The notes beneath the pieces were generated by a model. It was given only the letters and a program-made list of their open reading frames with translations, was not told the origin of the DNA and made no database searches. From Chthoniobacteraceae bacterium (GTDB taxonomy: Bacteria; Verrucomicrobiota; Verrucomicrobiia; Chthoniobacterales; Chthoniobacteraceae), in NCBI GenBank assembly GCA_947471505.1, contig CANIWM010000005.1, positions 1 through 64,000 on the forward strand: a DNA stretch of 64,000 nucleotides. The letters run 5' to 3'. Shown in pieces: positions 36,374 to 56,068 of this stretch. Numbering within the stretch: position 1 is the stretch's first letter; every line of letters begins with the position of its first letter. Both the position numbers and the translations under genes were made by a program.

Positions 36374-39300
36374 TTACGGCGTCCGCACCGCGCGGTAGAA
36401 TCGGCGCGTCTGCGAGCCCGGCGTGTCCGTCACATCGAGTGTGGTACCGGTGGCTTTGATGGCGGGGCCGAGATTGGTCCACGTCGCGTCGGAGAGTTCG
36501 TTCTTAAACTGCGGCTGATATGTGAAATCCGGCGTGGTCGTGATGCTGAACGTGATCACGCCGCCGCTCAGCGTCGCTGTCGCGGTCGGCAGCGCGAGCG
36601 TTGCGGTGTTGGTGGTGCCGGCGCTTGGGCTCGCGAGGAAATCGACCGTTGCGCCGCCGTCGGGCGTGAGGCCCTGGCTGATGTTTTTGACCTGCGCGCC
36701 GAAAGTTACCGAGTCCACGACGGTGCCGTCCGGGGCGCGGAGCGTGAGGGTTTCGCCACTGTTGCTGAGTTTGAATGGGACGTGGAGCTGGCCGCTGCCG
36801 GTGTTTTGAATCGTCTCGTCGTCGGCCCACACGAGCAGGCGCCCGGAGGGGGCGATGGCGTAGCCGCTCGGGATAATGTAGGTGGTGATGGAATCGCTGA
36901 GGCTCCATCCGGCGAGGCTCACGGTGCTGGCGGTCGGGTTGTAGAGTTCCAGCCAGTCTTCACTATCGCCATCGGCGGGGTCGAAGTCGTGGGCAGCGTT
37001 GTCGGCGAGCCATTCGTTGATGCGCAGTGCGGCCCAAGCGTTCGTGCCGGTGAAGTTGACGCTGAGCGTAGTGCTGCCGGTCAGCGTGCCTGCGGTATTG
37101 TAGGTGGAGATAACGAGCGGATTTGTGCCACTGGCCACGGGCACGCTGGCACTCCATGCGGTCACCGTCGTCCAAGTAAGGGGCAGTTCGAGCCCGTTAA
37201 AGGTGATCGTTTTTGCGCTGACGGGCGCGGTGCCGGTGATGGTGATGGGGCTGACCGTCGTGCTGCGCGGGTTCGAGCCACTGACGGTGAAGGAGGCGGC
37301 GACGGTGTTGAGCTGGTTTTGCACATAGGTTACGCGCAGGTTAATCCACTCTGGGATGCCGCCGGTGATCGCGGGGTTGCCGCCCTGGGACACCTTGTAG
37401 TAGTCGCTGGCCACAAACGGCGAAACCACGGCGACGCCGTTGGCGATGTAGCCGTTGTATCGCTGCGTCAAACGTGTGGACACGGCGGTCCCGCTGAAAA
37501 ATGTGTTGAGTGAATCACTCAGAGCACGCCAGTAGGGGCGGACGAGCGCGGGGGTATCGAACATTTTCTGGACGGGCGCATCGATGCCCGATGCGAAGAG
37601 CGGCTCGATAGAGGGGTGGTGGTTGGAATTGTCGGCACCGAGGCCCACGTCCATGTCGTTGGTGATGACTTTCCAGCCGCTGAGCGTGGGTTTGTAGAGA
37701 TAGGCGTTTTTGTCGTTTGGGTTCCCAAATGTGTCCCAATATGCGCACAGGTCGGCGAAGGCAAAGTTGCCCATCCATTGGTCCACATCCACGAGCGCTT
37801 TGACTCCGTCCACGTAGTCCGCGCCGCTGCCCGTGATGTTCGAGGCGGTGACGAGGTTGAAGATGTCTGCGAAGTCGTTTTCGCTGCCTTCCGAGGAGCG
37901 CGGCATCCAGCACCAGCGGTAGCGGGCGGTTTTGTAAACTCCGCCCGTGGTGGTGAAGGGCAGCAGAGAGTTGAAGTCCCCGGCCAGCACGGCGTTGGTG
38001 TCGCTGGTTTCGTCCCAGCGGCTGGTCTTGATCAGTCGGCCCTTCGTGTCGTCCGAGAAGCTGGAAGCGAGATGGTAGCCGCCGGGCTGATGGCAGTCGT
38101 GATAAATGGGAGCAGCGCTGGAAGCTGGAATCCGTCTCACACCGTTGACCACGAGATGCACGTCTCGTCGGTGGAGCGTCGGTAGCTTCATTTGCTCCAG
38201 CATCCAGTGCATGAGCTGCTCGCGCTGGTTGGTGGTGTCGCGAATCGGGTAATCAAGCACCGCTTCGTCCTCGCCCATTAGCGGCTCGCCCGGCGGGAGA
38301 TCGATGTCGTAGCCGATGATCGCAGTCGCTGGGTTGTTCCCCGTATTATCGGAAAACTGGGCAAAATGCGCGCCGGTGCCGTAAAAGACCCGACTGCTGT
38401 TGTGCAGGAAAGTAATCGGGAAGGCTTCGTTACTCTTGCTCAACCGCGCCGACCAAGCGGTCAGCGTGGAACTCGTGATCCACATCGTGTAAGTGCCGAA
38501 CGCCCCCGTCGGCAGAGTGTCGCCGACACGCGCCAAGCATTCCGAGGTAGGAGGGAAAACTGCGCTGGCCGCAGCGGGATCGGTGGCCGTGATCGTGAAC
38601 CCGAGCAGTGCGCCTGCGGACTGCGCGGGGACTGTGCCGGTGAAAATTCCGTCGCCTGCGAGGAGATCGCCGCCTGTGCCGGAGTCGAGCATCGCGATGC
38701 TGGTGAGCGTCGCCGACGGGTCGAGGCGATATTTTAGCGTGACGCTCGCGACGCCGTCCGGGTCCGCTACCCGCGCGAAGACACGGAAAGGGAAACCGGC
38801 CACGGGGAGCACGGGAAGATGGGTGACGTCGGTGATCGAAGGCGCGGCGTTGGCGACGGCACGGCTATTAGCAGCGGCGGGCGTGCCGAGATTTTTCGGC
38901 ACCGTCAGCGCGCCGTATGCCTCCAGCCCTCCACCGCGCAGGCGGAGCAGGAAATCCGGCGAACCGTGAAGCCAGCGGGCGCGGGCGCGAAGCGTGGCGG
39001 TGGAGCCGGTGGCGATGGTTGCGGTCAGCGACGTCCGCACATGGTTTGGCATCGAGTCGCCGCGGCCCAGTGCGACGAGGCGCAGCGATTTGGTGCCGGC
39101 AAAGCCCGAGTTTTCGATGACGGAGCGATTGTGCGTGCCCTGCACGAGCCATGAGCCGATGCCGCTTTCAAAGCCGCCATTGGTCACGACATTTGCACCG
39201 CCGGAGGGCGTCGCCTCCACTTCATCGAGCAACGCTTCGCCCTTATTGAGCAAGCATGCGTCGAGGCGATTGGCGAGGGCGGTCGCGTTGAGGTTCACAT

Positions 39301-41827
39301 GGTCCAAAACGCCGGTCGTCTCCACGAGTGTCCACGGCGCTTTCGCCGTGTCATCGCTATCGAGCCAGAGCGGCGTGGCGATGTCGCGCGGGTCGGAAAG
39401 CTCCAGACTGCTCCCACCGCCGTCGGCCCACTGCGACCACCGGGACGCGTCGGCGTAGCTCACTTCATCAACCGCGGCAAAATACGTGAGCGGACCGGGA
39501 ATCGTTACGGGTTGGCCGAGCACGACCTCTTCGCCGCTGCCGGAGAGCGTTCCCGTGAAAGGCCCAAAGACCAGTGCCGCCGAAAGCCCCGGATGATTCG
39601 CGAGAAGACGAGCAGGGTTTTTTGCCACGACAACGTAGCCATTGGCTGCGATGCTCGCACCCGCTGGAAAGGTAAACGAAACACCGTCGCTGATGCGCCA
39701 GCCGGCGAGGCTCACCGCGCTGCCACTGAGATTGCGCAGCTCCAGCCACTGATCCTCGGCGTCGCCGGTGATCGGGTGAAAATACAGCTCATTGAACACC
39801 ACCGGTCCACGCGCGGCGGCGGAGTTTGTCGCGCCGGGTGTGGCGCTGTTCAGGCGGCGAACCAACCCTTCGCCGTCCGGCGTGCGACCGCTCGCAGTGT
39901 CGGGCAGTTGGCCGCGAAAGCGTACGGCGTCGAGCACGCGGGTTTGTGCCGCGTTTGTGAAATACACCGTCTCGCCTTCCGCGCTCAGCCCAAAGAGCAT
40001 CTGCGTTTGCGTGAAGCTCACGCGTCCCCGAGGCGGCAGGACGGTGCCGCCGGGGATTTGGAATTTGCCCAGCAGCGCCACGTCGTCCGAGATCCAGCAT
40101 CCGCTCACATCGATGCTGAGCGGACTGCTATTAAACAACTCGATGAAGTCCGTGCCCACCGTCGAGTGGGAGAGGATTTCGTTGATAAGCACATGATCCT
40201 GCGGACTGGCTGGCAGCCCTTCCGCGACGCCCGGCGAACCGCCGATGACCGCACTCGCACTCCACGCGCGCGCATCACCCTCACCGTAGCTGGGCCGCGT
40301 GAGCACCCGCGAATGTCCCGCGCCATCCGCCGCCGCTGGCCACTCCGGACCATCGTTCCACACCGCTTCGAGCACGATGGCATCGTTCGCCCGGCGCAGT
40401 CGCAGCTTGCCGCCCTCATTGGAAAGTGCGCCGGTGAACGGCCCAAGCACGCCCGTGATTCCATACACCGTCTGCACGTCCGCAGGCACTGCGGCCACTA
40501 CGAGAAATCCCTGCGCCGGGATGCTCGTGCCGGGCGGGAACGCATAGTCCACATCGCTCGAAATCCTCCAGCCCGTGAGGTCTTCCGGCCACGGGTTCGT
40601 GTTATAGAGCTCGATAAATTCAAGGTTCTTCCCATCGAGCCGCGTCGCGGGGTGCGTATGGAGTTCGGAGAAAATGATCGGCGTCTTTTTACTGGAGACC
40701 GCCAGCGGTTCGCCAGTGCGCTGCCAGCGATTGGGATACACCACGCTCACCGTCGCCGCAGTGGAAGTCGTGCTCCCAGCTAGATTCGTGATGGTCACGG
40801 TGTAGCTCCCCGCACTCGCCAGCGACGCGGTATTGATCGCGAGGGTGGAAGCGGTCGCGCCAGAAATCGGCACACCGTCTTTCAGCCATTGGTACGTCAT
40901 CGACGTCTGACTGGTCGCCGTGACACTGAGGATGGTGCTCTCGCCAAACACGATTGATTGCGACTGCGGCGGAGTCGCGACGACGGGCTCATTACCAAAG
41001 CGCGTGACCGTCAGATTCTCCACCCGCCCGTCCGCGGTGGCTCCGGGGCTCAGCGCGTTTCCACCATTTTGCATCCGCAGCTCGATGTAGCGCGCCGCAT
41101 TTTCCCACGTGATATTCCACGGCCCGAGATTCGAGGTGCTCCCACCCGCGACCGTCACCACAGCGCTCGCGGTGACGGGCGAAACGGTCTCATCAATCGT
41201 GAGGGCGACGGTATAGTTCGTTGCGTAAAGGTCTGGGCTCTTTAACACCGCCGCCGCACCGGCGCCGACGAGCGTACCGTCCGCATAGGTGTTCCACCCG
41301 CCGTTGCCTCGAACGAAAAAGCCGACGTCGGTCGAGGCGTTGGTCGGGCCGACGTGATTGGCGGTATCGCCAAGGTCCAGCGACACCCAAGTATCGGTGA
41401 TATTGGTGCTGCTGCGTTGGATGTTCGCGGTGAAACTGACGCTCCATTTTTTCCCAGCGACTTGCGGGCCAAAATCCGTCGAGAGCCGCACCGCCATTTG
41501 AGTGGGCGTCGTCGCATGGAACGTCCGCAGCAACAATGCGTCGCTCCCCGCAAAAGTGGCCGAGCTTTTCTCGATCAACGCGTCATTCGTCCCCGAGGCC
41601 CCGCTCGTCGGCAGCTCCGTGAAAGTCCCGCCCGTCAGCACGCCCGACTGCCGTGCCGGAATATCCACATTGATGTTCGTATCGTTCGCGCCGCCCGTGA
41701 TGGTGAACGGATCAGCAAGCACCACCGTATCCGCCCACGCGCTCGCGGAAAAAGCGAGCAGCGCGCAAGCAGCTTGAAGCGAGCGCCGGATGGCAGCGAA
41801 AGTGGAGATCGAAAATTCCGGGATCAT
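36374..41827 (-). CDS. Giant secreted protein with Ig, lamin-tail (LTD) and CotH-like domains
   Basis: An 1817-residue protein. A signal peptide covers residues 1-32 (after RRSLQAACALLAFSASAWA). Order: N-terminal beta-sandwich (about 35-275), Ig-like domain (about 280-365, with YQWLKDGVPISGAT), lamin-tail domains near 383-490, 545-640 and 675-775 (FIELYN, FIELFN, WLELRN with GWRIS), a carbohydrate-binding-like region (880-980), a CotH spore-coat-kinase-like region (about 1110-1510, with NDMDVGLGADNSNHHPS) and a fourth lamin-tail domain (about 1590-1720, DWLELYNP). The last 70 residues resemble the C-terminus of the two other giants here. Likely cell-surface or exopolymer-attached; the substrate of the kinase-like part is unknown. 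Confidence 0.9.
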   Translation of the reverse strand: MIPEFSISTFAAIRRSLQAACALLAFSASAWADTVVLADPFTITGGANDTNINVDIPARQSGVLTGGTFTELPTSGASGTNDALIEKSSATFAGSDALLLRTFHATTPTQMAVRLSTDFGPQVAGKKWSVSFTANIQRSSTNITDTWVSLDLGDTANHVGPTNASTDVGFFVRGNGGWNTYADGTLVGAGAAAVLKSPDLYATNYTVALTIDETVSPVTASAVVTVAGGSTSNLGPWNITWENAARYIELRMQNGGNALSPGATADGRVENLTVTRFGNEPVVATPPQSQSIVFGESTILSVTATSQTSMTYQWLKDGVPISGATASTLAINTASLASAGSYTVTITNLAGSTTSTAATVSVVYPNRWQRTGEPLAVSSKKTPIIFSELHTHPATRLDGKNLEFIELYNTNPWPEDLTGWRISSDVDYAFPPGTSIPAQGFLVVAAVPADVQTVYGITGVLGPFTGALSNEGGKLRLRRANDAIVLEAVWNDGPEWPAAADGAGHSRVLTRPSYGEGDARAWSASAVIGGSPGVAEGLPASPQDHVLINEILSHSTVGTDFIELFNSSPLSIDVSGCWISDDVALLGKFQIPGGTVLPPRGRVSFTQTQMLFGLSAEGETVYFTNAAQTRVLDAVRFRGQLPDTASGRTPDGEGLVRRLNSATPGATNSAAARGPVVFNELYFHPITGDAEDQWLELRNLSGSAVSLAGWRISDGVSFTFPAGASIAANGYVVVAKNPARLLANHPGLSAALVFGPFTGTLSGSGEEVVLGQPVTIPGPLTYFAAVDEVSYADASRWSQWADGGGSSLELSDPRDIATPLWLDSDDTAKAPWTLVETTGVLDHVNLNATALANRLDACLLNKGEALLDEVEATPSGGANVVTNGGFESGIGSWLVQGTHNRSVIENSGFAGTKSLRLVALGRGDSMPNHVRTSLTATIATGSTATLRARARWLHGSPDFLLRLRGGGLEAYGALTVPKNLGTPAAANSRAVANAAPSITDVTHLPVLPVAGFPFRVFARVADPDGVASVTLKYRLDPSATLTSIAMLDSGTGGDLLAGDGIFTGTVPAQSAGALLGFTITATDPAAASAVFPPTSECLARVGDTLPTGAFGTYTMWITSSTLTAWSARLSKSNEAFPITFLHNSSRVFYGTGAHFAQFSDNTGNNPATAIIGYDIDLPPGEPLMGEDEAVLDYPIRDTTNQREQLMHWMLEQMKLPTLHRRDVHLVVNGVRRIPASSAAPIYHDCHQPGGYHLASSFSDDTKGRLIKTSRWDETSDTNAVLAGDFNSLLPFTTTGGVYKTARYRWCWMPRSSEGSENDFADIFNLVTASNITGSGADYVDGVKALVDVDQWMGNFAFADLCAYWDTFGNPNDKNAYLYKPTLSGWKVITNDMDVGLGADNSNHHPSIEPLFASGIDAPVQKMFDTPALVRPYWRALSDSLNTFFSGTAVSTRLTQRYNGYIANGVAVVSPFVASDYYKVSQGGNPAITGGIPEWINLRVTYVQNQLNTVAASFTVSGSNPRSTTVSPITITGTAPVSAKTITFNGLELPLTWTTVTAWSASVPVASGTNPLVISTYNTAGTLTGSTTLSVNFTGTNAWAALRINEWLADNAAHDFDPADGDSEDWLELYNPTASTVSLAGWSLSDSITTYIIPSGYAIAPSGRLLVWADDETIQNTGSGQLHVPFKLSNSGETLTLRAPDGTVVDSVTFGAQVKNISQGLTPDGGATVDFLASPSAGTTNTATLALPTATATLSGGVITFSITTTPDFTYQPQFKNELSDATWTNLGPAIKATGTTLDVTDTPGSQTRRFYRAVRTP

Positions 41828-42080
41828 TGATGACTCCCTATTGCACCGGGATCGGGCGTTCTAACAGGGAAACTTTGCAGACCTCCTCCCCCCTCCGGGG
41901 ATTGGTCCCGATAAATCGGGAAGGCCGCCATTCTACGAATCCGCCGAGGGCGCACTTCCAAGAACGCGCGTCGTTCGCCAGGCGACAACGCCACTCTCGG
42001 TACACCTGCGCGGAATCCACACCGAGGCTCGTTCCCAGCACGGAGCGACCTCCCGATTCTTTCAAAAATAGTGCAAAATC
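41828..42080. other. Intergenic region with a small hairpin, no gene seen
   Basis: Upstream of the LTD/CotH gene. The only structure noticed is TCCCGATAAATCGGGA at 41906-41921, a 7-bp perfect stem with a 2-nt loop. No promoter was convincing. With the repeat array that follows, this stretch from 41828 to 42673 is essentially non-coding. Confidence 0.5.
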
Positions 42081-42374
42081 GTGAACAGTGCGTGCCATCC
42101 CCCGGACACGGCGTGTCACGCCGTGAACAGTGCACGCCATCCCCCGGACACGGCGTACCACGCCAAGAACGGGGCGCGCCACCACCCGGACACGGCACGC
42201 CACGCCGTGAACACGGCGTGCCACTACCCGGACACGGCACGCCACGCCGTGAACACGGCGTGCCACCACCCGGACACGGCGCGCCACGCCGTGAACAGGG
42301 CGTGCCACCACCCGGACACGGCGCGCCACGCCGTGAACAGTGCGTGCCACTACCCGGACACGGCACGCCACCGC
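42081..42374. repeat. Seven tandem 42-bp units built of interlocking hairpins
   Basis: Units start at 42081, 42123, 42165, 42207, 42249, 42291 and 42333, each 42 bp, differing by a few substitutions. Within a unit GGCGTGCC pairs with GGCACGCC across a short loop holding CCCGGACAC, and across unit borders CACGCCGTG pairs with CACGGCGTG around AA. The array can therefore fold into alternating hairpins. Because 42 is a multiple of three, several frames stay open, giving 14-residue peptide repeats, but base differences do not favour any one frame. There are no unique spacers, so it is not a CRISPR array. Confidence 0.85.
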
Positions 42375-42673: not shown

Positions 42674-45600
42674 TTAGTTCGACTGGACTTGGAGTCGCAG
42701 GAAGTTTCTCGCCGGAGTGCCGGGGGTGAATGTGTAGAAAATGGTGGTCGCGTTGTTCACGTAAGAACCGCCGGTGACTTCCGCCCAGACGTCGGTGATG
42801 CCGAGGTCGGTGGAGTCCTGGATGGCGTAGGTGAGGCCGCTGGTGCCGACACGTTTTGTGAAGCTGAGGGTGTTGCCGCTGAGTGTGCCGACGGACGGGT
42901 TTGGCACGGTGGGGTCTTGGCCGGATATGGCGTATTCTACGAGGTTGCGGATGCCGTCGTTGTCAGCGTCGTCGTTCGGGCCGCGCTTGTCCACCGGGAC
43001 GATGCCGCCTGCGAAGGTGCCGGTGATCCATGTGGAGAATGTCGTGATCGTGCTGGCGGTGAGGTAGCCGCTTGCATTCAGTGCGAACGAGTGGAAGCCG
43101 GGTGCGGAGATGAGCGCGAGTTGTGTGGGTGTGAGGCCGCTGCTGGTGGTGCCGAAGCGGAGCGACGTGCCGGATACGAAAGTGCCCGTGATGCTCAGGG
43201 TGCCGCCGGTCCAGTCGATTGCGCTGCTGTTTGCAAAGGCGAGAGCGGCACCGGCACCGAGATTGATTTTGGCGCTGCTGGTGATGTCGAGGGGGCCGAG
43301 GTTGTCGGTGAAGGTCGCGGCGTTGAGGGTGGCGTTGCCGATGATGATATCGGAGGTGCTGGAGATTACGTTGCTGGCACCGAGGGCGAGCGTGCCGCCG
43401 TTCACGGTGGTGTCGCCGGTGTAGGTGTTCGCGCCGCTGAGGGTGAAGGTGCCCGCGCCGCTCTTGGTCAGGCCGAAGTTGTTTCCGTTCGTTGTCCCCG
43501 GCATTGCGGAGGCCGCTACCGAGCCACTCGCACTGCCACCGAGATTGCCTGAAAACGTATAGTTGCCGCTGTTGTTGATCGTCAGCGTTGCCGCAGCGGA
43601 GATATCGCTGTTGACGACGCGTTGGATTCTCAAGGCGGCTTTCGCTCCGCTTCTTACGATATTGGTCAACCCGGCGAGCTGTTGGTTGAATCCGTTTAGA
43701 TTCAGCTCTGCAAACCGGCCGGTGCCACCGCCGTTCCCGCCATCAATGGTCAGCACCGTGGTCGTCGGCAGCGCGTTTTGGATTCCGAGCTTCACAATGA
43801 TCTGGTTCTCTCCGGCAGTGGTCGTTCCGTCCGTGGAGGCCGTCGTGTTCAGCAGCGTGCTGCCGGTATAGGTGCTTTGCGCGCCCAGATAGACGGTGGA
43901 CAAGGCGTTTTGAGCGACGCTGCTCAAGAACGTGACATTGCCGCTCCCGGCCAGCACGCTGTCGAGCGTAAGCGTGGAGACCACTCCTCCGCCTGGATTG
44001 TTTGTGGGCGCGCTGATGGTGGCAGTGGTTCCACTGCTGGCCACTGTGATGGGCGCATCGATAACCACGCCATCCAAGTTGGGTTGCAGAACGGTCCCGC
44101 CAGCCAGCGTCACGCCGAAGGTGGTGAGTAAGGCCGACGTGTTGTCGATGGCCAGCGCGCCAGTGCTGACGATAGTGGTGCCCGTGAAAGTATTCACGCC
44201 GGATAATGTGAGCGTGCCCGTGCCGGTCTTGGTCAGCGAGCCCGTGCCGGCGATGGAACCATTTACGGTCAGCGTTTGCGACGCGCCGACACTGACGGCG
44301 GCATTCGCGCTCAAACTCACGTCATTCGCGAGTGTGCAGCTCGCGGTGTTGGACAAGCTCCCGCCATTCAAAATCAGCCGTCCGGTGCCCAGAGCCGAGT
44401 TGTCGTTTGCCACCAGCGTGCCCGCGCTGACGGTTGTGTCGCCGCTGAAGGTGTTCGCAGCCTCCAGCGCCACGGTTCCCGCGCCATTGAGCGTGAGGCC
44501 CGGATAGCCGCTGATTTTTCCGTTGAATGTTGCGGTGCGCCCCGTGGCCACACTCCAGTTACTGGGAACGACCAATTGCACCGGACAGTTCACCGTGAGA
44601 TTCTGCGTGGCCGTGGTCATGTCCACGCCCGAGTCATCGAGGCCCAGGGTCGCGGTGCCATTGATGGTCACCGTTCCGCCGGGGTTGACGATTTTGATGC
44701 CAGCCCAATCCTGATCGCTGGCGAGCGTGGCGGTGTTCGCGGCGGTGACCGTGCTGTTCCATACCGCCTGCTTGTAAATCCCGGGATCCACGCCGCCCAC
44801 CCAGCTCCCTCCGGCGTCGAGGTTCGTGGCGTTGTTGGCTTTCGTGATCGTCGTGGTGGTGGCGGCCAGAGTGCCCGGCCAGGATTGCACCTGCGCACCG
44901 CTGACGAGCACGATGTTGAAATCGGCGGGAGGATTGAGGTTGTTCGCGCCGAAATACATGCCCCAGCGGAAGGTCGTCGTTCCCGTGGGGCGGGAGTAGC
45001 TGCTGGAGGCATACAACACGCCATCGATCCACAGCTTGTAATTCAGACCGTCGTCGAGCACGCGGACATCGAAGCCGCCGCCATCGAAATCCTTCGCACT
45101 GCCATCGGGATTCGTGACGACCACATCGGTGCCAGTCCGATTATTCACGGTCAGCGAACCGTCGCCGCCCATGCTGAGCTGCACCGCCCAATCATTGTCG
45201 GTGTTCTTGAGTTGAAAGCAGCAATACCCCTGCTGGAGGCGGGCGATGGTGTAATGGGCCGTCCACTCGTAGGTTGTGTAATCGGTGTACTGCCACCCGC
45301 CGCCCATGAAAGCCTCGGTGTGCGAGGAGGTGCCTGCCCGCGTGGTGGCCGTATTCTCATCATCCACAAACACCCGGAGCACATGCGTATTCCCGTCGGT
45401 CTGAAACCACCGGGTGAAATCCGCGACATTCGTCGTGGACGTGTTGCACGCGACATGGATTCGACGGTCGGGGACCGAAATGGGACGATTGCCGTAGAGC
45501 CCTACCTCGACGGCGGCATTGTTGACATTGATCACCGACCCATTCACCGGGCCGGGGTCCGGGGCGTCCACATTCAGCGTAGGCAAAATCGCGCTCCACA

Positions 45601-47368
45601 GCGGGTTCGCCGGGCTGCCGGTATCCGTGTAGAGCACCGCCGGAACGGGCACGGTGAACTTCCACCCCGTGTTGATGGCGATTCCCTCGTAGCTGTTGCC
45701 TGAAGTATCCTTCACCGCGCCAGCGGGGATCAGCACGTAATAAGTTTGGTTCGTCGAGAGACTATTGGTCGGGTTGATGACCAATTGTCCGGTGCTGAAC
45801 GTCAGGCGGGAGGATGAGGCCACGTTGAATGATTCCACCACGTTGTCATTGCTGAACCTTCGCAGCTCAATGCTGCCGGTGCCCGCGACGACCGTTTCGT
45901 CAAAGGTCGCCACGAGGTCGGCGGCGGCCAACACGTTCGCAACATTGTTGACCGGCACGGTGCTGCGCAAAGTTGGCGGCGTCGTGTCGCCCGCGGCGGT
46001 GATCACATAGTCCAGATAGTTTCCGCTGACCTGCAATGCGCCAGTCTGATTCCAGGCGAGCGTGGGCACCGTGCCGAGCGTGAAGCCGCTGGCATTCGCC
46101 GGGCCGCTGCCATATTGAACCAAATGGAAGGTGCCATTGAACCCCAGCCCCGTCGGCAGGTTAATCGTCACCGCCCCCGCTCCGCCGCCGACAGTCAGGG
46201 CATTGTTCACCTTGATGGCAGCCGCGCTGGTGTAGGCAGACAGGGTTCCCACATTGACCATCGCCGTGCCGCTGAACGTGAGGCTGGAAACGGTGAGGTT
46301 ACTGGCACCCGGCGTCACCGAGCCGCCGGCGTTTACGGTGACGGCCGCATTCACCGTCCCGTCTCCGGCCAGAGTCGCTCCGTTGCTGACCGTGGTCGGG
46401 CTGGCGATGGTGCCGTCCACTTGCAAAGTGCCAGCGCTCACCGTGGTGCTGCCGGTATAGGTATTTGCTCCGCCGAGAGCGAGCGTGCCGCCACCCGTCT
46501 TGACCAGCGAACCGCCCCCGCTCAACACACCGTTGTAAGTGGTGGAGCTGTTATTGCCGCCCACGGTCAAAGCGATAGGAGTGCTGGCGTCGTTCAGCAG
46601 CGCGAGGTTCGAGCCCGTGCCTGCGCTGCTGGCGGCCAGCCCGCCAAAGGTGAATGCGTTTGCAGTAACGCCGCTGTCAAAGATCACAGCGGCATCCGCG
46701 CTCAGGGTCACGGTGCTGTTTTGCAACGCGAGTCGATTGTTGAGGTTCACGCGGGCACCTCCCGTGGCGCCGGCGCTGAAACTGGTGGTGCCGCTAAAGG
46801 TGTTGGCACTACCCAGATTGATAGTGCCGGTTCCGGAGGTATCCGGGCCGGCGAGGACGAGATTTCTGCCGACTGGCCCTGCAATCACAGCATTCACGGT
46901 CAAGGTTCTACCGGTGGTGTCGTTGGCGGCCGCCAGAAACGTATTGGCTCCGGTAATGCCCAACGTGAGCGTGTAGGGGCCGCTGCCACCCGCGATGACG
47001 ACGGAGGTTCCACCGGATTTCTGAACGATCCCTCCGAGGATGATGTTCGCGCCGAGCGTGAGGGTTTGCGACGCGCCGTTGATGTCGGCCACGTTGCTGC
47101 CGTTCACCCACGCCACATGAGCCAGACCGCTGCCTTGATCCCAGTTCTCCAAAGTGGTGTTCCAAGTGCCACTGACGCCGTCGCTGTTACCATCACCGTT
47201 GGCCACGATGTCCACGCTCCCGCCATCCCAATACCTCGTCGCGGCTTGCGCAGGGACGGACGCAAGCGCAAGCAGCCCCGACAGCGCGCCGATTTTCACG
47301 CATGTGAAAAATCCCGCAGTGAGTAAGCGGAGGCAGTTGATATGTTGGCGCATGGCGCTTGGTGTCAT
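42674..47368 (-). CDS. Giant secreted autotransporter-associated beta-strand repeat protein
   Basis: A 1564-residue protein starting at ATG 47368 (a second ATG at 47353 is possible); the frame upstream passes through an inverted repeat and is not coding. Signal peptide: ALSGLLALASVPAQA. The body has many passenger-type repeats of the form LTKTGTGTLTLSGVNTFTGT followed by T(V/I)(V/S)..GTL, typical of beta-helical adhesins. Around residues 450-560 is an SbsA/Ig-like domain (DTTPPTLRSTVPVNN). A region near 600-830 with DFTRWFQTDGNTHVLRVFVDDE looks like a separate lectin/sandwich domain. No C-terminal beta-barrel is present; the end matches the Verrucomicrobia tail (DADNDGIRNLVEYAISG, then NFLRLQV). 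Confidence 0.88.
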   Translation of the reverse strand: MTPSAMRQHINCLRLLTAGFFTCVKIGALSGLLALASVPAQAATRYWDGGSVDIVANGDGNSDGVSGTWNTTLENWDQGSGLAHVAWVNGSNVADINGASQTLTLGANIILGGIVQKSGGTSVVIAGGSGPYTLTLGITGANTFLAAANDTTGRTLTVNAVIAGPVGRNLVLAGPDTSGTGTINLGSANTFSGTTSFSAGATGGARVNLNNRLALQNSTVTLSADAAVIFDSGVTANAFTFGGLAASSAGTGSNLALLNDASTPIALTVGGNNSSTTYNGVLSGGGSLVKTGGGTLALGGANTYTGSTTVSAGTLQVDGTIASPTTVSNGATLAGDGTVNAAVTVNAGGSVTPGASNLTVSSLTFSGTAMVNVGTLSAYTSAAAIKVNNALTVGGGAGAVTINLPTGLGFNGTFHLVQYGSGPANASGFTLGTVPTLAWNQTGALQVSGNYLDYVITAAGDTTPPTLRSTVPVNNVANVLAAADLVATFDETVVAGTGSIELRRFSNDNVVESFNVASSSRLTFSTGQLVINPTNSLSTNQTYYVLIPAGAVKDTSGNSYEGIAINTGWKFTVPVPAVLYTDTGSPANPLWSAILPTLNVDAPDPGPVNGSVINVNNAAVEVGLYGNRPISVPDRRIHVACNTSTTNVADFTRWFQTDGNTHVLRVFVDDENTATTRAGTSSHTEAFMGGGWQYTDYTTYEWTAHYTIARLQQGYCCFQLKNTDNDWAVQLSMGGDGSLTVNNRTGTDVVVTNPDGSAKDFDGGGFDVRVLDDGLNYKLWIDGVLYASSSYSRPTGTTTFRWGMYFGANNLNPPADFNIVLVSGAQVQSWPGTLAATTTTITKANNATNLDAGGSWVGGVDPGIYKQAVWNSTVTAANTATLASDQDWAGIKIVNPGGTVTINGTATLGLDDSGVDMTTATQNLTVNCPVQLVVPSNWSVATGRTATFNGKISGYPGLTLNGAGTVALEAANTFSGDTTVSAGTLVANDNSALGTGRLILNGGSLSNTASCTLANDVSLSANAAVSVGASQTLTVNGSIAGTGSLTKTGTGTLTLSGVNTFTGTTIVSTGALAIDNTSALLTTFGVTLAGGTVLQPNLDGVVIDAPITVASSGTTATISAPTNNPGGGVVSTLTLDSVLAGSGNVTFLSSVAQNALSTVYLGAQSTYTGSTLLNTTASTDGTTTAGENQIIVKLGIQNALPTTTVLTIDGGNGGGTGRFAELNLNGFNQQLAGLTNIVRSGAKAALRIQRVVNSDISAAATLTINNSGNYTFSGNLGGSASGSVAASAMPGTTNGNNFGLTKSGAGTFTLSGANTYTGDTTVNGGTLALGASNVISSTSDIIIGNATLNAATFTDNLGPLDITSSAKINLGAGAALAFANSSAIDWTGGTLSITGTFVSGTSLRFGTTSSGLTPTQLALISAPGFHSFALNASGYLTASTITTFSTWITGTFAGGIVPVDKRGPNDDADNDGIRNLVEYAISGQDPTVPNPSVGTLSGNTLSFTKRVGTSGLTYAIQDSTDLGITDVWAEVTGGSYVNNATTIFYTFTPGTPARNFLRLQVQSN

Positions 47369-47632: not shown

Positions 47633-49210
47633 TCAATCTTTCTCCGGCTTCTCGCCAACCGCTCCGCTCAAAAACTTCCGCCATTTGACTTCGACATCAT
47701 TGGCCTGCTTAGGACCGGGCGTGATGCGTCCGTCGTTGACGAGCTTCTCCATTGTGGCGGTGAGTTCGGCGACGAGTTCGGGCTTTTCGGCCCAGAGGTT
47801 TTTCGTTTCACCGAGGTCGGTGGAGAGGTCATAGAGCTGACCGGTCGGGAGCCTTCCACCTTTTGCCCCGAAGCCGCCGCCGCCTTGGCCGAAGATGATT
47901 TTCCACGCGCCCTTGCGCAGCGCGGGCAAGCCGCTGGAGGCGTGGCTGATGGCGTATTCGCGGACCGCCTGCGTGCCACCTTTGAGCAGCGGGACCAAGC
48001 TCACGCTGTCCTCGGCGGCGTTGCCGGGAAGCTTGGCGTCGAGTGTCTCGGCGAGCGTGGCGATCACGTCGCTCTGCTGAACGAGCGCGTCGCAGCGGGC
48101 GTCCGCTTTGACCACGCCGGGCCAGCGCACGATGAACGGAACACGGTGCCCGCCTTCCCACGCATCGGCTTTGTAACCGCGCAGAGGGCCGCTGGGAAAA
48201 TGGCCTTTCGCCTCCAACTCCGCCGCGCCGATGTAGGGCGCGCAGCCGTTGTCGCTGGTGAAAAAGACGAGCGTCTTGTCCGCAGCGCCGCTCTTTTCCA
48301 GCGCATCCAAAACGCGTCCCACGACGGCATCCGTCTGCATCACGAAATCCGCATAATCATTCAGCCCGCTCTTGCCGTGCCATCCTTCCGCGAGGGCGAT
48401 GGGCGTGTGCGGTGCGGTGAGCGGGAGGTAGAGAAAGAACGGCTCGGGCTGCTTCGCGGACCGCTCGATGAACGCACTCGCGCGGTCGGCCAGCGCGGGC
48501 AGGATGCCTTCGAGCTGCCAGCCGGCGAGCGCAGGGCCTTCCTTGCTTGCCTGTTGTTTCCCGAGCTTCGACGCAGGCAGGAATTCGGACGGGATACCGA
48601 CCGTACGGTCGTTCTCGATGAAACAAAACGGCGGCCAGTTTGGCACGTCGGTGCCGAAGTATTCGTCGAAGCCACGCGTCACGGGACCGCCGCCGACGGG
48701 CTTTGCAAAATACTCCCGCCACGCCGTGCGATGCGCTTCCGTTGCTTCGCCGGCATTCGCGCCGCGCCCGCCGCTGAAGAGTGGCTTCTGCGACGGCGCG
48801 ACATTCCAATCCCAGCCGAGATGCCACTTCCCCACGATGCCCGTGCGATAGCCGTTCTGCTTCAGCAAGCTCGCAATCGTGACCCGGTCCGCTGCGATGA
48901 GCGGCTTTTCGAGATAGCCCACGATGCCGCTCTGCAAGCGCGACCGCCAATGATAGCGCCCCGTGAGCAACGCGTAGCGCGAAGGCGAACACACGCCGCT
49001 CGAAGTGTGCGCATCGGTGAACCTCATGCCCTGCGCCGCGAGCTTGTCGATATTCGGCGTCGGGATTTTTCCGCGCTCCGGATTGTAGCAATGCACGTCG
49101 CCGTAGCCGAGGTCGTCGGCAAGGATGATGAGGACGTTCGGTTTGGATGCCGCGCGAGCGGGAAATGCGAGCGCGCAAGCCACGGTGACGAGAAGAATAA
49201 GTGCCTTCAT
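47633..49210 (-). CDS. Secreted arylsulfatase
   Basis: A 525-residue sulfatase with signal peptide (MKALILLVTVACALAFPARA). The N-terminal metal site is NVLIILADDLGYGD, and the signature CSPSR follows at 74-78 in SSGVCSPSRYALLTGRYHW with C74 the formylglycine precursor. Further blocks are GIVGKWHLGW, APHTPIALAEGW and FFTSDNGCAPYIG. This is the common arylsulfatase A-like subfamily, different from the iduronate-type enzyme at 908. It needs a formylglycine-generating enzyme that is not in the window. It lies 54 bp downstream of the PhoD-like gene on the same strand. Natural substrate unknown; probably sulfated polysaccharide. Confidence 0.95.
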   Translation of the reverse strand: MKALILLVTVACALAFPARAASKPNVLIILADDLGYGDVHCYNPERGKIPTPNIDKLAAQGMRFTDAHTSSGVCSPSRYALLTGRYHWRSRLQSGIVGYLEKPLIAADRVTIASLLKQNGYRTGIVGKWHLGWDWNVAPSQKPLFSGGRGANAGEATEAHRTAWREYFAKPVGGGPVTRGFDEYFGTDVPNWPPFCFIENDRTVGIPSEFLPASKLGKQQASKEGPALAGWQLEGILPALADRASAFIERSAKQPEPFFLYLPLTAPHTPIALAEGWHGKSGLNDYADFVMQTDAVVGRVLDALEKSGAADKTLVFFTSDNGCAPYIGAAELEAKGHFPSGPLRGYKADAWEGGHRVPFIVRWPGVVKADARCDALVQQSDVIATLAETLDAKLPGNAAEDSVSLVPLLKGGTQAVREYAISHASSGLPALRKGAWKIIFGQGGGGFGAKGGRLPTGQLYDLSTDLGETKNLWAEKPELVAELTATMEKLVNDGRITPGPKQANDVEVKWRKFLSGAVGEKPEKD

Positions 49211-49264
49211 AATGAAATCGCTTCGGATGGTGCGGTGTTCTCCGCGTGCTTCACAGCGATTGTT

Positions 49265-50416: not shown

Positions 50417-50587
50417 CGGACGCATGACGGTTTGTCGATGACGCCCCCATGCGAGACAAGACTTCGTTTGAGAATGTGCGGGGCATAACGCACTTCCCCG
50501 CCCACCGTGTCTTTACGGGTTCATCGCAGCGAACGACTTAGTTTGAACGAAGAGACACGATGGAAATGGAGGCTTTTGTTTCTACCC

Positions 50588-53500
50588 CTACTGCGTAATC
50601 ACCGGAATGGTCACGCGGTAGAATCCGCGCGGCTGGGCGAGGCGGGCGGCGTCGAGCTCGGTGAAGGTGGCGGTGCTGCCGTCGCTGGTGACGCTGCCGA
50701 TGTCGGTCCAGGTGCCGGTGGTGAGGTCGGATAGGTATTGCAGCGTGTAGGTGGTGCCGGGGGTCGCGCGGAAGTCGAGCTGGATGAGGCTGTTGTCGCC
50801 GGTGCGCGTGAAGCTGGAGATGGCGAGGGCTTCGGTGGCGTTGTTCTTTACGACGAACTGCCCCATGAGCCCTTCGTCTTCGTGGTTCGAGAAGTGGCAG
50901 TGATACATGAAGGGGTTGGTCTCGCTGGCAAATCCATCGAACTTTGCGATGAAGCTGACGGTTTGGTTTTGGCCGATGAAGAGGACGTCCTTCCAGCCTT
51001 CCTCGTAGGTCTTGATGCCGGTGTTGTTGCCGCCGGTGCGCGAGATGAGGTGGAACTGGATGTCGTGGATGTGGAACGAGTGGCTGAAGCCGGAGGTGTT
51101 GGTGATGTTCCAGCGCTCGACGGCGTTGAGGTTGAGGTTCTGATTGATGACGCTCGACGAGTAGCTGAGGTTGTCGAAGTTGAACGGCGCGCCGCCGGGG
51201 AAGCCGTTGGTGATGGTGACGGTGCGGGTGTTGGTCACGTCGGCGAGGCCGTAGAATGTATTGGTGGTGAGCGTGGCGGGGCGTGTGGTGACGGCGTTGG
51301 CGGTCGCGGCGCCGACGTTGATGTGGAGGATGTTGAACGTGGTGTTGTTCAGCAAGCTGCCGAACTGTCCGGCGGTCGCAGCTTCGCCGCCGGGGAAGTC
51401 GTTTGCCTGGCCGGTGTTGAACGCTTGCAAGTCGAGCGACGAGCCGACGGTCGCGCCGGTGAGATCGACGAGAATCTCCGCGCGTTCGCCAACTGCGAGG
51501 ACGAGGCGGGTCAAGGCGACGGGCGCATTGACGAGGCCGCCGTCGGTGGCGATTTGGTAGAAGGTGCGTCCGTCGCTAAAGCCGAGGTTGTAGCTGCGCT
51601 CGATCTCGGCGTTGAGGATGCGGAGGCGGACGTATTGCTTGGGCAGTGTGACCTGCGGGCTGAGCGTTCCGTTTACGAGCATGTAGTCGCCGTATGCGCT
51701 GGCCGTGACGCCTGCGAGGCCGCTGACGAATTGATTCGCGGCCCAGCGGCGGCTGGTGAGCGCGAGCGGGAAGTCATCGACGCCGTAGGTGCGCGGGAGG
51801 CCGAGTGCTGCCTCCTGCGGGTCGCGGATGATGATCATGCCGCCGCCGCCTTTGATGAGTTGGTCCTGAGTGTGTTCGTGGAGATGCGGGTGGTACCAGT
51901 AGGTGCCGGCGTTGTTGTCCACTTTGAACTGCGGACGCCACGTGGTTCCGGCGGGGATGACCTGGTGCGGCCCGCCGTCCATGATGGCGGGGATGTGGAA
52001 GCCGTGCCAGTGCGTGGTGGTGGATTCGGTGAGGTTGTTGGCGACGTTGAGCTGCACCCAGTCCCCTTTGTTCATGATGAGCGTGGGGCCCCACATGAGC
52101 ATGTTGTTGTAGCAGACGGTGGTGGTGTCGGCGGTGTTTTGGAAGGCGGTATTGCCGAAGCGCTTTGCGGAGTTGTGGAGGTTCAGATTGAACGTCGTGC
52201 CGGTCATCACTTCGGGGACGATGAGCGGATTGTAGGTCTGCGTGGCGGTAAGCGTGACGTTCACCGGTGCTGTGGTGGTGACGTTTCCAGCGGCGTCGTA
52301 GGCGACTGCGGTGATGCCGTTCGTGCCGTAGCCGAGCGGGATGGTGATGCTCCAGTTTGCGAAGCCGTTCGCGGTGGTCGCGGTGACGCCGTTGACGGTG
52401 ACATTGCTCACGCCGGAAAGAGCATCGCTGCTCGTGCCGCTGACGGTGAACGTCGCGGTGGCCGTGGAAAGCGCGGACGCTGGCGAGGTGATCGCGACCA
52501 CCGGCGCGACGCTGTCCTGCGTGGACGAGACGACGTTGCTCGCGGCCGAGGAGCCGATGGCGTTTGTAGCCACGACGCGGTAGTAGTAGGTCACGCCGCT
52601 CGCGAGGTTCGTGAATGTGGCGCTCGGGCTGGTGACAGTCTGCGAAACGACGCTCGTCGTGAAGGCGGCGTTGGTGGCGATTTGGATCGTGTAGCTCGTC
52701 GCACCGCTGACTGCGGGCCACGTGATGGTCTTCGATGCGCCTTGGCTGAACAGCGGGAGCGCAGCAAGCACCGGCGCGGATGGCGCGGTGTTGGAACCGA
52801 CCGCGAGGCTCACAGCGCGCGTGGTGTTTCCGGTTCCGTTGGTGCTGTTCGTAAATGTGATCGTGTCACTGTAGCTGCCGACGGCGAGCGAGTTCGCGGT
52901 GGTGTTGATGCTCGCGGTGACGGTCGTATTTGCGCCCGCTGCGAGTGTGCCGCTCGCGCTGGAAAGCGTGACCCACGCGGCGGTCTTCGCGGCGGTCCAG
53001 TTCATTGAGGCGTTGCCGGTGTTGGAGATCGTGTAAGCCACGCTCGCCGGTGTGAATGGTCCGCCGATTGTGCCGATGGAAGTGAGGCCTGTGGCCGGAG
53101 TGACCGCGAGGACCGGTGCCGCCGCGACGACGGTGTATGAATTATTCGCGCTCGTCGTGGTGACGGATGCGCTGTCGGTCGCAGCGATGGTATAATTCAC
53201 TGTGGTGCCCACGGCCTGCGCTGGAATCGCGCTGTATCCATAGACGCCGTCGCCCGCTGCGCCGTCGCCGTTGAGCCCGTTGTCGAGCATGTTCACGGTG
53301 ACTGGCGCGCTTGCGCTGGTCGTCACGACTTTGATATCATCAACCCGGAAGGTGCCCGTACCGCCCATGCCGCCGCCGGCAAACTGGAAGCGCATCCGCA
53401 GCGTGTTCACACGCTCGCCCGCCGTGAGATCATAGTGAAACAGAAAGTGCGTCGCGTGAGTGATGTTGTTTTCGGTGATGCGTGTCGTCCATGTCGTGCC

Positions 53501-56068
53501 GCCGTTTGCGGAGATCTGAAAATTGAATCCCGTCGTCGTGGTTTGGTTCACTGCGGCGAGGTAAAACTCGACGTACGCGGCGGTGCCGACTGCATTGATA
53601 TTCGTCGAGTTCGCGACCGAGCCGTCCCCGATGCCCGCGTATGGCGGCCCGCCTACAACCTCAAGGCCGAACTGATTCCCTGATCCCACTGCAGTGTGAT
53701 TCGCAGCAGCCGTCTGGCTGAACGGATTCGGCGGCGGCGGCCCACCCGCGCCGACCGGAGCCGTGACGGTCCAAGCGTTGTTCGCGTTTGTGCCGGTCCA
53801 CGGAGCGGAGGCAACGGAGGCCATCGTTTCGTTAAAAACGGTGGTCGTTCCGCCCGCGCCGGTGTTGTGAGTTAATTGCACGCTGGTAATCGTCCGGCCC
53901 GAACTCGCTGCGACGTTCGCTTTGATGACGACCGCATCCGCGCTCGTCGGCGACGCAGGCGTGGCGATGATGTTCGTGATGGTCGGGGCTGTCGGCACGA
54001 CCGTCAAAGTGAACGCCGAAGTCGCCGTCGCCGCGCCATCGCTGACCGTGAGCGTGATTGCGGCGCTGCCCGTCTGGCCGGCCGCCGGAGTGATCGTCAC
54101 CGTGCGGCTCGCACCGCTGCTCCCAAAGACGATGTTCGCATTCGGCACGAGTGCCGTGTTTGCCGAAGAGCCGGAGAGCGTCAACGACGCAGCGCCCGTG
54201 TCCACATCGCCCACGGTGAACGCGATCGCGGAGGTCGCTGTGTTTTGGTTCGTGCTCTGCGCAGCAATCGCCGAAATCGTCGGCGCGGCATTCGTTCCCG
54301 TGACGGTGAGTGTGAAGGTCGTATTCGTCGTATCCTGCCCGTCGCTCACGCCGACTGTGATTGTCGCCGATCCCGTCTGACTCTGCGCTGGAGTAACGGT
54401 CACCGTGCGATTCGCGCTGCTGCCGCCGAAAGTGATGTTCGCATTCGGAACGAGCGTCGTATTTGAAGATGAGCCTACCATCGTGAGGCTCGCGACTGCC
54501 GTTTCCACATCGCCCACCGTCACCGCCAGAGCGCTCGTCGCTGTGTTCATTGCCACGGATTGCGCGGAGATTCCCGTGATGGCCGGCGGCGTGTTTGGTG
54601 TGAGCGAATAGCTCGCGATGGTGCTCTGCGCGACCGTCGCCGCCGTCTGGCCTGCCGTGTCATACGTCGCCAGCGCGGTCCGGTTCACACGGCCATACTC
54701 CGTGCCGGAAGAACCGAGCGTGGCGTAGGTCGAAGACTTGGAAACACCGGTCGCGACCAGGCCCGTCGCCCTATTTGTAAACGGCGTAAAGCTGGCCGAC
54801 GACGACGCGTCCACCGAGTAAGTCCCCCCCTCCACCGCACTCCATGTGAGAGTCACATTCGGTGCCGCAACGCTCGGCGTGCCGATGGTCAGAGGCGTAT
54901 TGGGCCCCGCGCTCACGTAGGTCGTTTCGGTGCCCGCGAGCGTCGCGGCCGCGCCGGTCGGGTTGCCGTAGTAGGCGCGGCCGATGTTGTAGGGAAAGGT
55001 GGGCGCGCCGCTCGCGTCTATGGCCACAAAGTAGGCGTAGGTGCCGCCGGGAAACTCGGGCGTCACGCAAAAGCGCCCGTTGTATTCGTCGAGGTCGTAG
55101 GTGCCCGCCGCACCCATGCTCTGCCCCGCGATGTCGCCGCGGAACGCCTTGTCCTCCATGTAGCGCCCGAAGGGATAGGTCGTGAAATTAGTCGGCCCCA
55201 CGACGGTCTGCGCGCCGTAGAGACGCAGCGCCCACGCGGGCAGCGTGCGCCCGGTCACACGCACGTCGTCCACATTGGCCGTGGTGCCGTCCCGCAGCAC
55301 ATAGCCGGTGCGCATGCGGGTCAGCGCGCTGGTTGCGTCCATTGCCGACGAGTAGCCGTACGGCCCATAGACTGGGTATCCATCGCGCACCCAGCCGAGG
55401 ATGGGCGAGTGCTTCGTCACCGGTGTCGTGCTTTCGGTGTAAGCCTTGGTCGATATGTTGAAATCCACATGATCGCCGAGCAGGTAGCGCAGCGCGATCG
55501 GGTTGGCGTGATAATGGTGATTGCCGGTGTTTTCCTGATGCGCCTTGCCTTCGTCGAAAGTGGCCCCCTCGTTCACATAGGCATCGCGATTCCAATAGCC
55601 GTTCCCGTTGCTTTCCGCCGCGCCCGTCCAGACGAAGCCGTCGCGCGAATCGAACATCGCCACGCCGTCTACGAAATAACCGATCGCCCCGAGCCCCGTC
55701 TGCGTCTTCGTCGTCGGCACCGTGCCCGGCGAGCGCGGGAAGCGGTAGGTCACGTTCTGGTTCTTCGGCAGATTGGGAAACGCGCCGTTCAACCACGGCC
55801 CCATCACATGCCCGGCCAGCCCGCTCGTTTTGATGTAGACCCAGTCCGTCGAATACGCGACCGACTGCACGCCGCAGTAGGCCGGGAGGGACTGCACCTG
55901 CGTGCCGTTGGTCCATGTTGTCGCGGAGACGCCGGCGAGCTTATTGGCGTCGCTCGTGTAGATGCGCGCGTATTTCGAGGAATTGTCAGTAAACCAGGAC
56001 GAGAGCAGCGGGTCTGCATGTGCAACCCCGAGACTGGCGAGAAGGGCGAAGAAGGTAATGGATTTCAT
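50588..56068 (-). CDS. Giant secreted YHYH-domain / multicopper oxidase fusion
   Basis: An 1826-residue protein; the ATG at 56068 gives the signal peptide MKSITFFALLASLGVAHA. Residues about 20-430 form a YHYH-type domain (GNHHYHANPIALRYLLGDH at 182-200, HSPILGWVRDGYPVYG). Next come cadherin/BIg-like repeats (at least two near-copies containing TVSDG), a carbohydrate/Ig-like middle and a fibronectin-like segment. The C-terminal multicopper oxidase (about 1290-1760) has all four copper motifs: HWHGFH (from 1353), YHPHLHEH (1392-1399), HSFHIH (1663-1668) and HCHFSNHEDEGLM (near 1723-1735; type 1 Cu with axial Met). The end is the shared C-terminal module (GFYRVTI). Likely an extracellular oxidase of phenols or metals. 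Confidence 0.88.
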   Translation of the reverse strand: MKSITFFALLASLGVAHADPLLSSWFTDNSSKYARIYTSDANKLAGVSATTWTNGTQVQSLPAYCGVQSVAYSTDWVYIKTSGLAGHVMGPWLNGAFPNLPKNQNVTYRFPRSPGTVPTTKTQTGLGAIGYFVDGVAMFDSRDGFVWTGAAESNGNGYWNRDAYVNEGATFDEGKAHQENTGNHHYHANPIALRYLLGDHVDFNISTKAYTESTTPVTKHSPILGWVRDGYPVYGPYGYSSAMDATSALTRMRTGYVLRDGTTANVDDVRVTGRTLPAWALRLYGAQTVVGPTNFTTYPFGRYMEDKAFRGDIAGQSMGAAGTYDLDEYNGRFCVTPEFPGGTYAYFVAIDASGAPTFPYNIGRAYYGNPTGAAATLAGTETTYVSAGPNTPLTIGTPSVAAPNVTLTWSAVEGGTYSVDASSSASFTPFTNRATGLVATGVSKSSTYATLGSSGTEYGRVNRTALATYDTAGQTAATVAQSTIASYSLTPNTPPAITGISAQSVAMNTATSALAVTVGDVETAVASLTMVGSSSNTTLVPNANITFGGSSANRTVTVTPAQSQTGSATITVGVSDGQDTTNTTFTLTVTGTNAAPTISAIAAQSTNQNTATSAIAFTVGDVDTGAASLTLSGSSANTALVPNANIVFGSSGASRTVTITPAAGQTGSAAITLTVSDGAATATSAFTLTVVPTAPTITNIIATPASPTSADAVVIKANVAASSGRTITSVQLTHNTGAGGTTTVFNETMASVASAPWTGTNANNAWTVTAPVGAGGPPPPNPFSQTAAANHTAVGSGNQFGLEVVGGPPYAGIGDGSVANSTNINAVGTAAYVEFYLAAVNQTTTTGFNFQISANGGTTWTTRITENNITHATHFLFHYDLTAGERVNTLRMRFQFAGGGMGGTGTFRVDDIKVVTTSASAPVTVNMLDNGLNGDGAAGDGVYGYSAIPAQAVGTTVNYTIAATDSASVTTTSANNSYTVVAAAPVLAVTPATGLTSIGTIGGPFTPASVAYTISNTGNASMNWTAAKTAAWVTLSSASGTLAAGANTTVTASINTTANSLAVGSYSDTITFTNSTNGTGNTTRAVSLAVGSNTAPSAPVLAALPLFSQGASKTITWPAVSGATSYTIQIATNAAFTTSVVSQTVTSPSATFTNLASGVTYYYRVVATNAIGSSAASNVVSSTQDSVAPVVAITSPASALSTATATFTVSGTSSDALSGVSNVTVNGVTATTANGFANWSITIPLGYGTNGITAVAYDAAGNVTTTAPVNVTLTATQTYNPLIVPEVMTGTTFNLNLHNSAKRFGNTAFQNTADTTTVCYNNMLMWGPTLIMNKGDWVQLNVANNLTESTTTHWHGFHIPAIMDGGPHQVIPAGTTWRPQFKVDNNAGTYWYHPHLHEHTQDQLIKGGGGMIIIRDPQEAALGLPRTYGVDDFPLALTSRRWAANQFVSGLAGVTASAYGDYMLVNGTLSPQVTLPKQYVRLRILNAEIERSYNLGFSDGRTFYQIATDGGLVNAPVALTRLVLAVGERAEILVDLTGATVGSSLDLQAFNTGQANDFPGGEAATAGQFGSLLNNTTFNILHINVGAATANAVTTRPATLTTNTFYGLADVTNTRTVTITNGFPGGAPFNFDNLSYSSSVINQNLNLNAVERWNITNTSGFSHSFHIHDIQFHLISRTGGNNTGIKTYEEGWKDVLFIGQNQTVSFIAKFDGFASETNPFMYHCHFSNHEDEGLMGQFVVKNNATEALAISSFTRTGDNSLIQLDFRATPGTTYTLQYLSDLTTGTWTDIGSVTSDGSTATFTELDAARLAQPRGFYRVTIPVITQ

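Follow-up and report, generated by a model that had tools for sequence, protein, structure and literature searches.

A C-terminal domain (hereafter, the tail) closes three very large exported proteins encoded in the 64,000-nucleotide stretch of Chthoniobacteraceae DNA analyzed here (the window). On present evidence, it represents a new family of C-terminal sorting-like domain that occurs phylum-wide in Verrucomicrobiota. We judge it slightly more likely than not that the tail targets and/or anchors the exported proteins of this phylum. The tail itself is real and far more widespread than first noted, and its predicted structure, terminal position, and distribution are considered below together with the alternatives that bear on its role.

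Three exported proteins with a common C-terminal domain

The three genes and their tails are listed in Table 1. In each case the stop codon directly adjoins the tail, and a script heuristic placed a signal peptide at the N-terminus of the product. A common C-terminal module had been proposed for these products in the first-pass annotation, and the proposal was confirmed: a phmmer search with tail 1 against all window ORFs recovered tail 3 (E 7.7e-5, with chance ORFs at 0.5 or above), and a profile of about 76 residues is common to all three. Tail 2 joins the other two via this profile and not through single-sequence search. Invariant columns in the three-row alignment include T-Y-x-x-Q, L, W, and R-x-F-x-R. 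The accompanying claim that the three proteins lack a beta-barrel likewise held in Pfam and NCBIfam scans, which found no autotransporter C-terminal 12-strand barrel in any of them, despite the PATR repeats of gene 2.

Table 1. Features of the three tail-bearing genes (window coordinates)
Feature	Position	Strand	Description	Basis
Gene 1	36374..41827	-	1817-aa exported protein; Ig + 4 LTD + CotH + LTD, tail at end	Pfam
Gene 1 tail domain	36377..36622	-	...TYQPQFKNELSDATWTNLG...RRFYRAVRTP*	Sequence and profile search
Gene 1 signal peptide	41732..41827	-	Ends SASAWA	Script heuristic; cleavage site by eye
Gene 2	42674..47368	-	1564-aa exported protein; PATR repeats + Big_5, barrel-free, tail at end	Pfam/NCBIfam
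Gene 2 tail domain	42677..42931	-	FLRL subtype, ...NFLRLQVQSN*	Profile search and model
Gene 2 pre-tail loop	42911..42976	-	TSP3/EF-hand-like acidic loop and short helix (NDDADNDGIRNLVEYAISGQDP) before tail	Sequence; loop enrichment; helix predicted
Gene 2 signal peptide	47243..47368	-	Ends SVPAQA	Script heuristic; cleavage site by eye
Gene 3	50588..56068	-	1826-aa exported protein; YHYH domain, Ig-like repeats, multicopper oxidase, tail at end	Pfam/NCBIfam
Gene 3 tail domain	50591..50845	-	...TYTLQYLSDLTTGTWTDIG...RGFYRVTIPVITQ*	Sequence and profile search
Gene 3 signal peptide	56015..56068	-	MKSITFFALLASLGVAHA	Script heuristic; cleavage site by eye

Gene 3 resembles a fusion of a YHYH protein with a multicopper oxidase. 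Two stand-alone YHYH relatives (L088 and L103) are encoded in the same genome, and the tail closes both. Residues 463-527 of the gene 3 ORF form a weak tail-like stretch (E 0.009), as if a former tail had turned internal. Between genes 1 and 2 lies a G+C-rich tandem array (window 42080-42371; period 42, 7 copies, 89% match), in which overlapping minus-strand ORFs translate as 'CPGGGTPCSRRGAP'-type repeats. The interval between genes 2 and 3 (window 47633-50425) holds a secreted sulfatase and a phosphodiesterase/PhoD-like phosphatase, both named by eye, with signal peptides and without a tail.

Copy number and terminal position

Searched against the genome (6.07 Mb), the three-row profile of the ~76-residue window tails matched at 35 places, nearly all of them 0-7 residues from the stop. 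Extending the profile to 24 rows raised the yield to 73 rows in this genome; with 55 rows it was 95 at E <=0.01, equivalent to about 93 loci. Full-length domain scanning was applied to 92 ORFs, comprising 72 matches from this genome and 20 from other genomes. Exactly one significant tail copy was present in 90 of the 92 proteins, and in 89 of these 90 it was terminal (<=45 residues from the stop; <=7 residues in 87). Uniform placement would leave just about 5 of these 72 own-genome matches so near the end of the ORF, and the LTD domain, taken from the same proteins as a control, lay internally in all 30 cases. The sole real internal copy in the scan is that of L089. A profile search of this kind had been suggested in order to see whether its matches end large exported proteins, and they do; they are neither mainly internal nor limited to Ig- or fibronectin-like repeats within proteins, though the predicted fold is itself FN3-like.

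Bodies and export signals

Tail-bearing ORFs of this genome have a median length of 1387 residues, with 51 of 70 longer than 700. A strict script detected a signal peptide in 53 of the 72 own-genome tail ORFs; among those that failed, several show one by eye from alternative start codons or are truncated at a contig end. The bodies that precede the tail include LTD/CotH, PATR/Big_5, YHYH with multicopper oxidase, exo/endonuclease-phosphatase, alpha-amylase, S9 peptidase, and GDSL lipase architectures, in addition to PKD, Calx-beta, NHL, GH16 with CBM, glucose/sorbosone dehydrogenase, metallophosphatase, and endonuclease I. The description of these bodies as unrelated stands insofar as they differ widely, but it needs qualification, as roughly half of the own-genome bearers are LTD-repeat giants: about 45 of the approximately 52 LTD ORFs bear the tail (count from the result tables). 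The genome contains 140 LTD matches in about 52 giant exported ORFs, often together with CotH, an unusually large expansion.

Two tail subtypes can be distinguished by their final strand, F-Y-R-[VIA] and F-[LIM]-R-[LV]-x-V, and both occur equally on the two types of body (12 FYR and 11 F.R on LTD proteins; 17 FYR and 16 F.R on other bodies). A tree of 66 tails was poorly resolved, with tails from LTD and other bodies interspersed (14 changes vs 22 in shuffles). That one C-terminal module is common to differing exported bodies is strongly supported.

Predicted fold and the segment preceding the tail

The tail was modeled by AlphaFold2 as a confident small beta-sandwich (pLDDT 88.7, pTM 0.73). 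Its closest solved folds are fibronectin type III (FN3) domains, with a top VIA-align Z of 7.6 (1dan chain T; 66 residues, rmsd 2.0) and a Z of 6.7 for 3mpc, an Fn3-like protein of Clostridium thermocellum; all structural Z values are below 8, a level that may reflect just a common arrangement according to the tool's own warning. In a model of a longer gene 2 construct, a short helix precedes the sandwich and the final strand extends to residue 111 of 112. The most conserved residues are W and F-x-R. The tail is accordingly predicted to be an FN3-like sandwich whose final strand (FYRV or FLRLKV) reaches the stop. Its likeness to FN3 domains, such as 3mpc and the N-terminal domain of the pectate lyase PelI, is one of predicted fold; the tail differs from them in its negligible sequence match, its strictly terminal place, and its single copy. 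A sequence search against solved structures gave no match below E 0.5 (3mpc, E 0.55), and a Foldseek search of the PDB yielded no tail match at E <=0.001, with no type IX C-terminal domain among the matches listed. The 49 tails scanned against Pfam and NCBIfam were not covered by any model, and Pfam fn3 had no hit among them. Membership in DUF3999 (9 of 25 tails, best 6e-5) and in the F5/8 type C family (4 of 24 tails, best 1e-5) was rejected, the hits being short and partial and due to a local R-[YF]-x-R-L/V motif.

A DxDxDG-like loop was found upstream of 49 of 67 own-genome tails, compared with 21 of 1020 random windows from the same proteins. In many cases the loop has the form DxDGDGxxNxxEYxxGTDP and weakly matches PF18884, the bacterial TSP3 repeat. 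This resemblance concerns a linker and not the tail, and the loop is absent before many tails, two of the window's three among them. At the other end of the domain, proline is the final residue in 40 of 70 own-genome tails vs 5 of 132 neighboring ORFs (Fisher p 8e-18), a ratio that is only approximate because the crude neighbor set includes spurious ORFs and PEP-CTERM proteins. The Pro-ending tail proteins carry KP, TP, or VP right before the stop codon. We speculate that a terminal proline could shield the C-terminus from carboxypeptidases.

These structural features also bear on the main alternative, in which the tail is a passive FN3-like terminal module. It would cap or stabilize the C-terminus, or have a glycan or mineral ligand, and would have spread through domain shuffling without any dedicated machinery to read it. 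The FN3-like sandwich is a common fold, the TSP3-like loop often precedes the tail much as in ordinary extracellular modular proteins, and the conservation of W and F-x-R could have structural reasons. However, FN3-type adhesion modules are usually tandem and internal, whereas the tail is single-copy, with its last strand at the very end of the protein and proline enriched as the final residue. We regard a passive module as a serious contender that nevertheless falls short of an even chance.

Comparison with type IX secretion

Type IX C-terminal domains are beta-sandwiches of 70-100 residues that occur once per protein on unrelated large exported proteins with signal peptides. The tail resembles both the type A (Por_Secre_tail, PF18962) and type B domains in being a terminal beta-sandwich, present in single copy on diverse exported bodies; it differs in its F-x-R final strand, in its range, restricted to Verrucomicrobiota in the scan made, and in the lack of a PF18962 match. 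The possibility that the tail is a type IX domain diverged past recognition draws on this similar logic of a signal peptide combined with a C-terminal beta-sandwich on diverse large proteins. Against it, PF18962 had no match in the whole genome, and Pfam scans of 49 tails revealed no type IX tail family. The type IX translocon profile SprA_N (PF14349) was found in 0 of 288 Verrucomicrobiota genomes, a result of limited weight, as none of the control genomes gave a match. We consider such an origin highly improbable, and the tail did not match the type IX tails with which the first-pass annotation compared it.

The GspD/PilQ secretin profile was present in 282 of 288 genomes, and the six secretin-free genomes, all from one family, are tail-free. 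Being near-universal, the secretin does not discriminate the genomes that have the tail. Among the candidates examined (secretin, exosortase, and type IX components), no partner gene for the tail was found.

Comparison with PEP-CTERM and exosortase

PEP-CTERM, first noticed in Verrucomicrobium (Haft 2006, PMC1569441), is a C-terminal homology region found in many copies on diverse proteins with signal peptides. The tail is alike in its many copies, its C-terminal place, and its diverse signal-peptide bearers, and it occurs in the same genomes. However, the PEP-CTERM region spans about 24 residues, with a PEP motif, a transmembrane helix, and a basic end, whereas the tail appears as a folded soluble domain, and PEP motif, transmembrane helix, and basic cluster are all absent from the tails. 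This genome encodes one exosortase (C8:35097-35834) and about 39 PEP-CTERM proteins above the cut-off (PF07589), apart from the tail proteins. Of the PEP-CTERM proteins checked, 0 of 30 carried the tail. As the two tags were never found on one protein, they split similar giant bodies between them, and the tail is no match to PEP-CTERM, with which it had earlier been compared.

At the level of genomes, the two systems nonetheless co-occur. An exosortase hit (PF09721) was obtained in 132 of 134 tail genomes vs 82 of 154 tail-free genomes (odds ratio 58, p 1e-21), values for which the genomes are not independent and the association tracks clades. Counted by family, 45 have both, none has the tail only, 9 have the exosortase only, and 8 have neither (p 7e-6). 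Since the association follows clades, phylogeny can account for much of the co-occurrence. In Akkermansia muciniphila the exosortase is Amuc_1470 according to the literature; a PF09721 search of the putative A. muciniphila genome in our set (G113) found none. Thus, one of the two tail-only exceptions is probably false, and a genome without a PF09721 hit may still have an exosortase, so that the test within the Akkermansia family (p 6e-4) is undermined. In the Akkermansia-like family f8 (genus g9), every exosortase listed for a tail-bearing species is a 319-codon open frame (no hit in G113), and those listed for tail-free species have 331-347 codons; these lengths may mark two exosortase subtypes.

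In a further alternative, the exosortase/exopolysaccharide system would use the tail as another kind of substrate or as an accessory, and the tail would dock its protein to the exopolymer that exosortase-linked loci make or decorate. The counts by genome and by family fit this idea, as does the pairing of the Akkermansia exception with Amuc_1470. The missing PEP motif, transmembrane helix, and basic cluster speak against it, as do the many exosortase genomes that have no tail, the dependence of the association on clades, and the softness of negatives from a profile that can miss exosortases such as that of A. muciniphila. We therefore hold this alternative to be improbable. That tail genomes are nested among those with an exosortase suggests that the tail is connected with the exopolymer layer, or possibly that just a lifestyle is shared.

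Distribution across Verrucomicrobiota

The tail was detected at E <=0.001 in 134 of 288 Verrucomicrobiota genomes; 20 candidates were scored per genome, so that the per-genome counts are lower bounds. In these other genomes the terminal position recurred: all 28 assessable tail loci lie within 12 aa of the stop, and all 20 full tail regions are terminal, with one further locus meeting a contig end. A species-wide scan (84,980 species, one genome each) gave 21 confirmed loci, all in Verrucomicrobiota and 0-4 residues before the stop, although the two short peptide patterns used derive from the FYRI subtype and bias the scan toward it, such that the tail may also occur in other phyla.

Two tail proteins are encoded in the Akkermansia genome G113. 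By eye, one is a sulfatase in which some parts resemble PATR and BACON, and the other reads as a LamG/GH18 glycoside hydrolase. From their sizes and described domains, they putatively correspond to Amuc_0953 (sulfatase) and Amuc_2164 (glycoside hydrolase), the tags being assigned here. Both have been described as candidate mucinases with a C-terminal BACON module (PMC3048395).

A proposed targeting or anchoring domain

A lone folded domain that sits last on diverse signal-peptide proteins, and never together with PEP-CTERM, looks like a targeting or anchoring domain. The tail shares the general hallmarks of C-terminal sorting domains, namely a place at the extreme C-terminus, one copy per protein, and diverse exported bodies. 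In a mechanism of this kind, the N-terminal signal peptide would take the protein through Sec, and the folded FN3-like terminal domain, with its last strand F-[Y/L]-R-[V/L] at the C-terminus, would be recognized beyond the inner membrane. Recognition would then put the protein in the outer membrane, on the surface, or in the exopolymer layer. On this view, the tail would be a structured address label used in addition to PEP-CTERM, the cleavable transmembrane tag that other giants of the same genome carry. Several points weigh against the targeting reading: FN3-like folds are often passive or ligand-binding, the LTD giants inflate the number of bearers, and L089 has an internal copy. Of the original suggestion of a sorting or anchoring signal, the common C-terminal module on differing exported bodies is strongly supported, and the sorting role is the best reading of it that we can infer. 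Neither a description of the tail nor localization data for any tail protein were found in the literature.

A bolder extension, which we consider less likely than not, is that Verrucomicrobiota have a delivery route of their own, in which the FN3-fold C-terminal label would be read by a dedicated phylum-specific machine for outer-membrane or surface attachment, independent of type IX secretion and of exosortase.

Significance

It is poorly understood by what means the very large secreted proteins of Verrucomicrobiota, Akkermansia included, are delivered. Across the phylum, the tail singles out a defined set of these proteins. This set includes the two Akkermansia proteins that match the candidate mucinases Amuc_0953 and Amuc_2164. 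The tail profile could further serve to predict exoproteins that are missed by current family databases. The tail is also a short, testable module, and its phylogenetic profile could guide the search for a partner machine.
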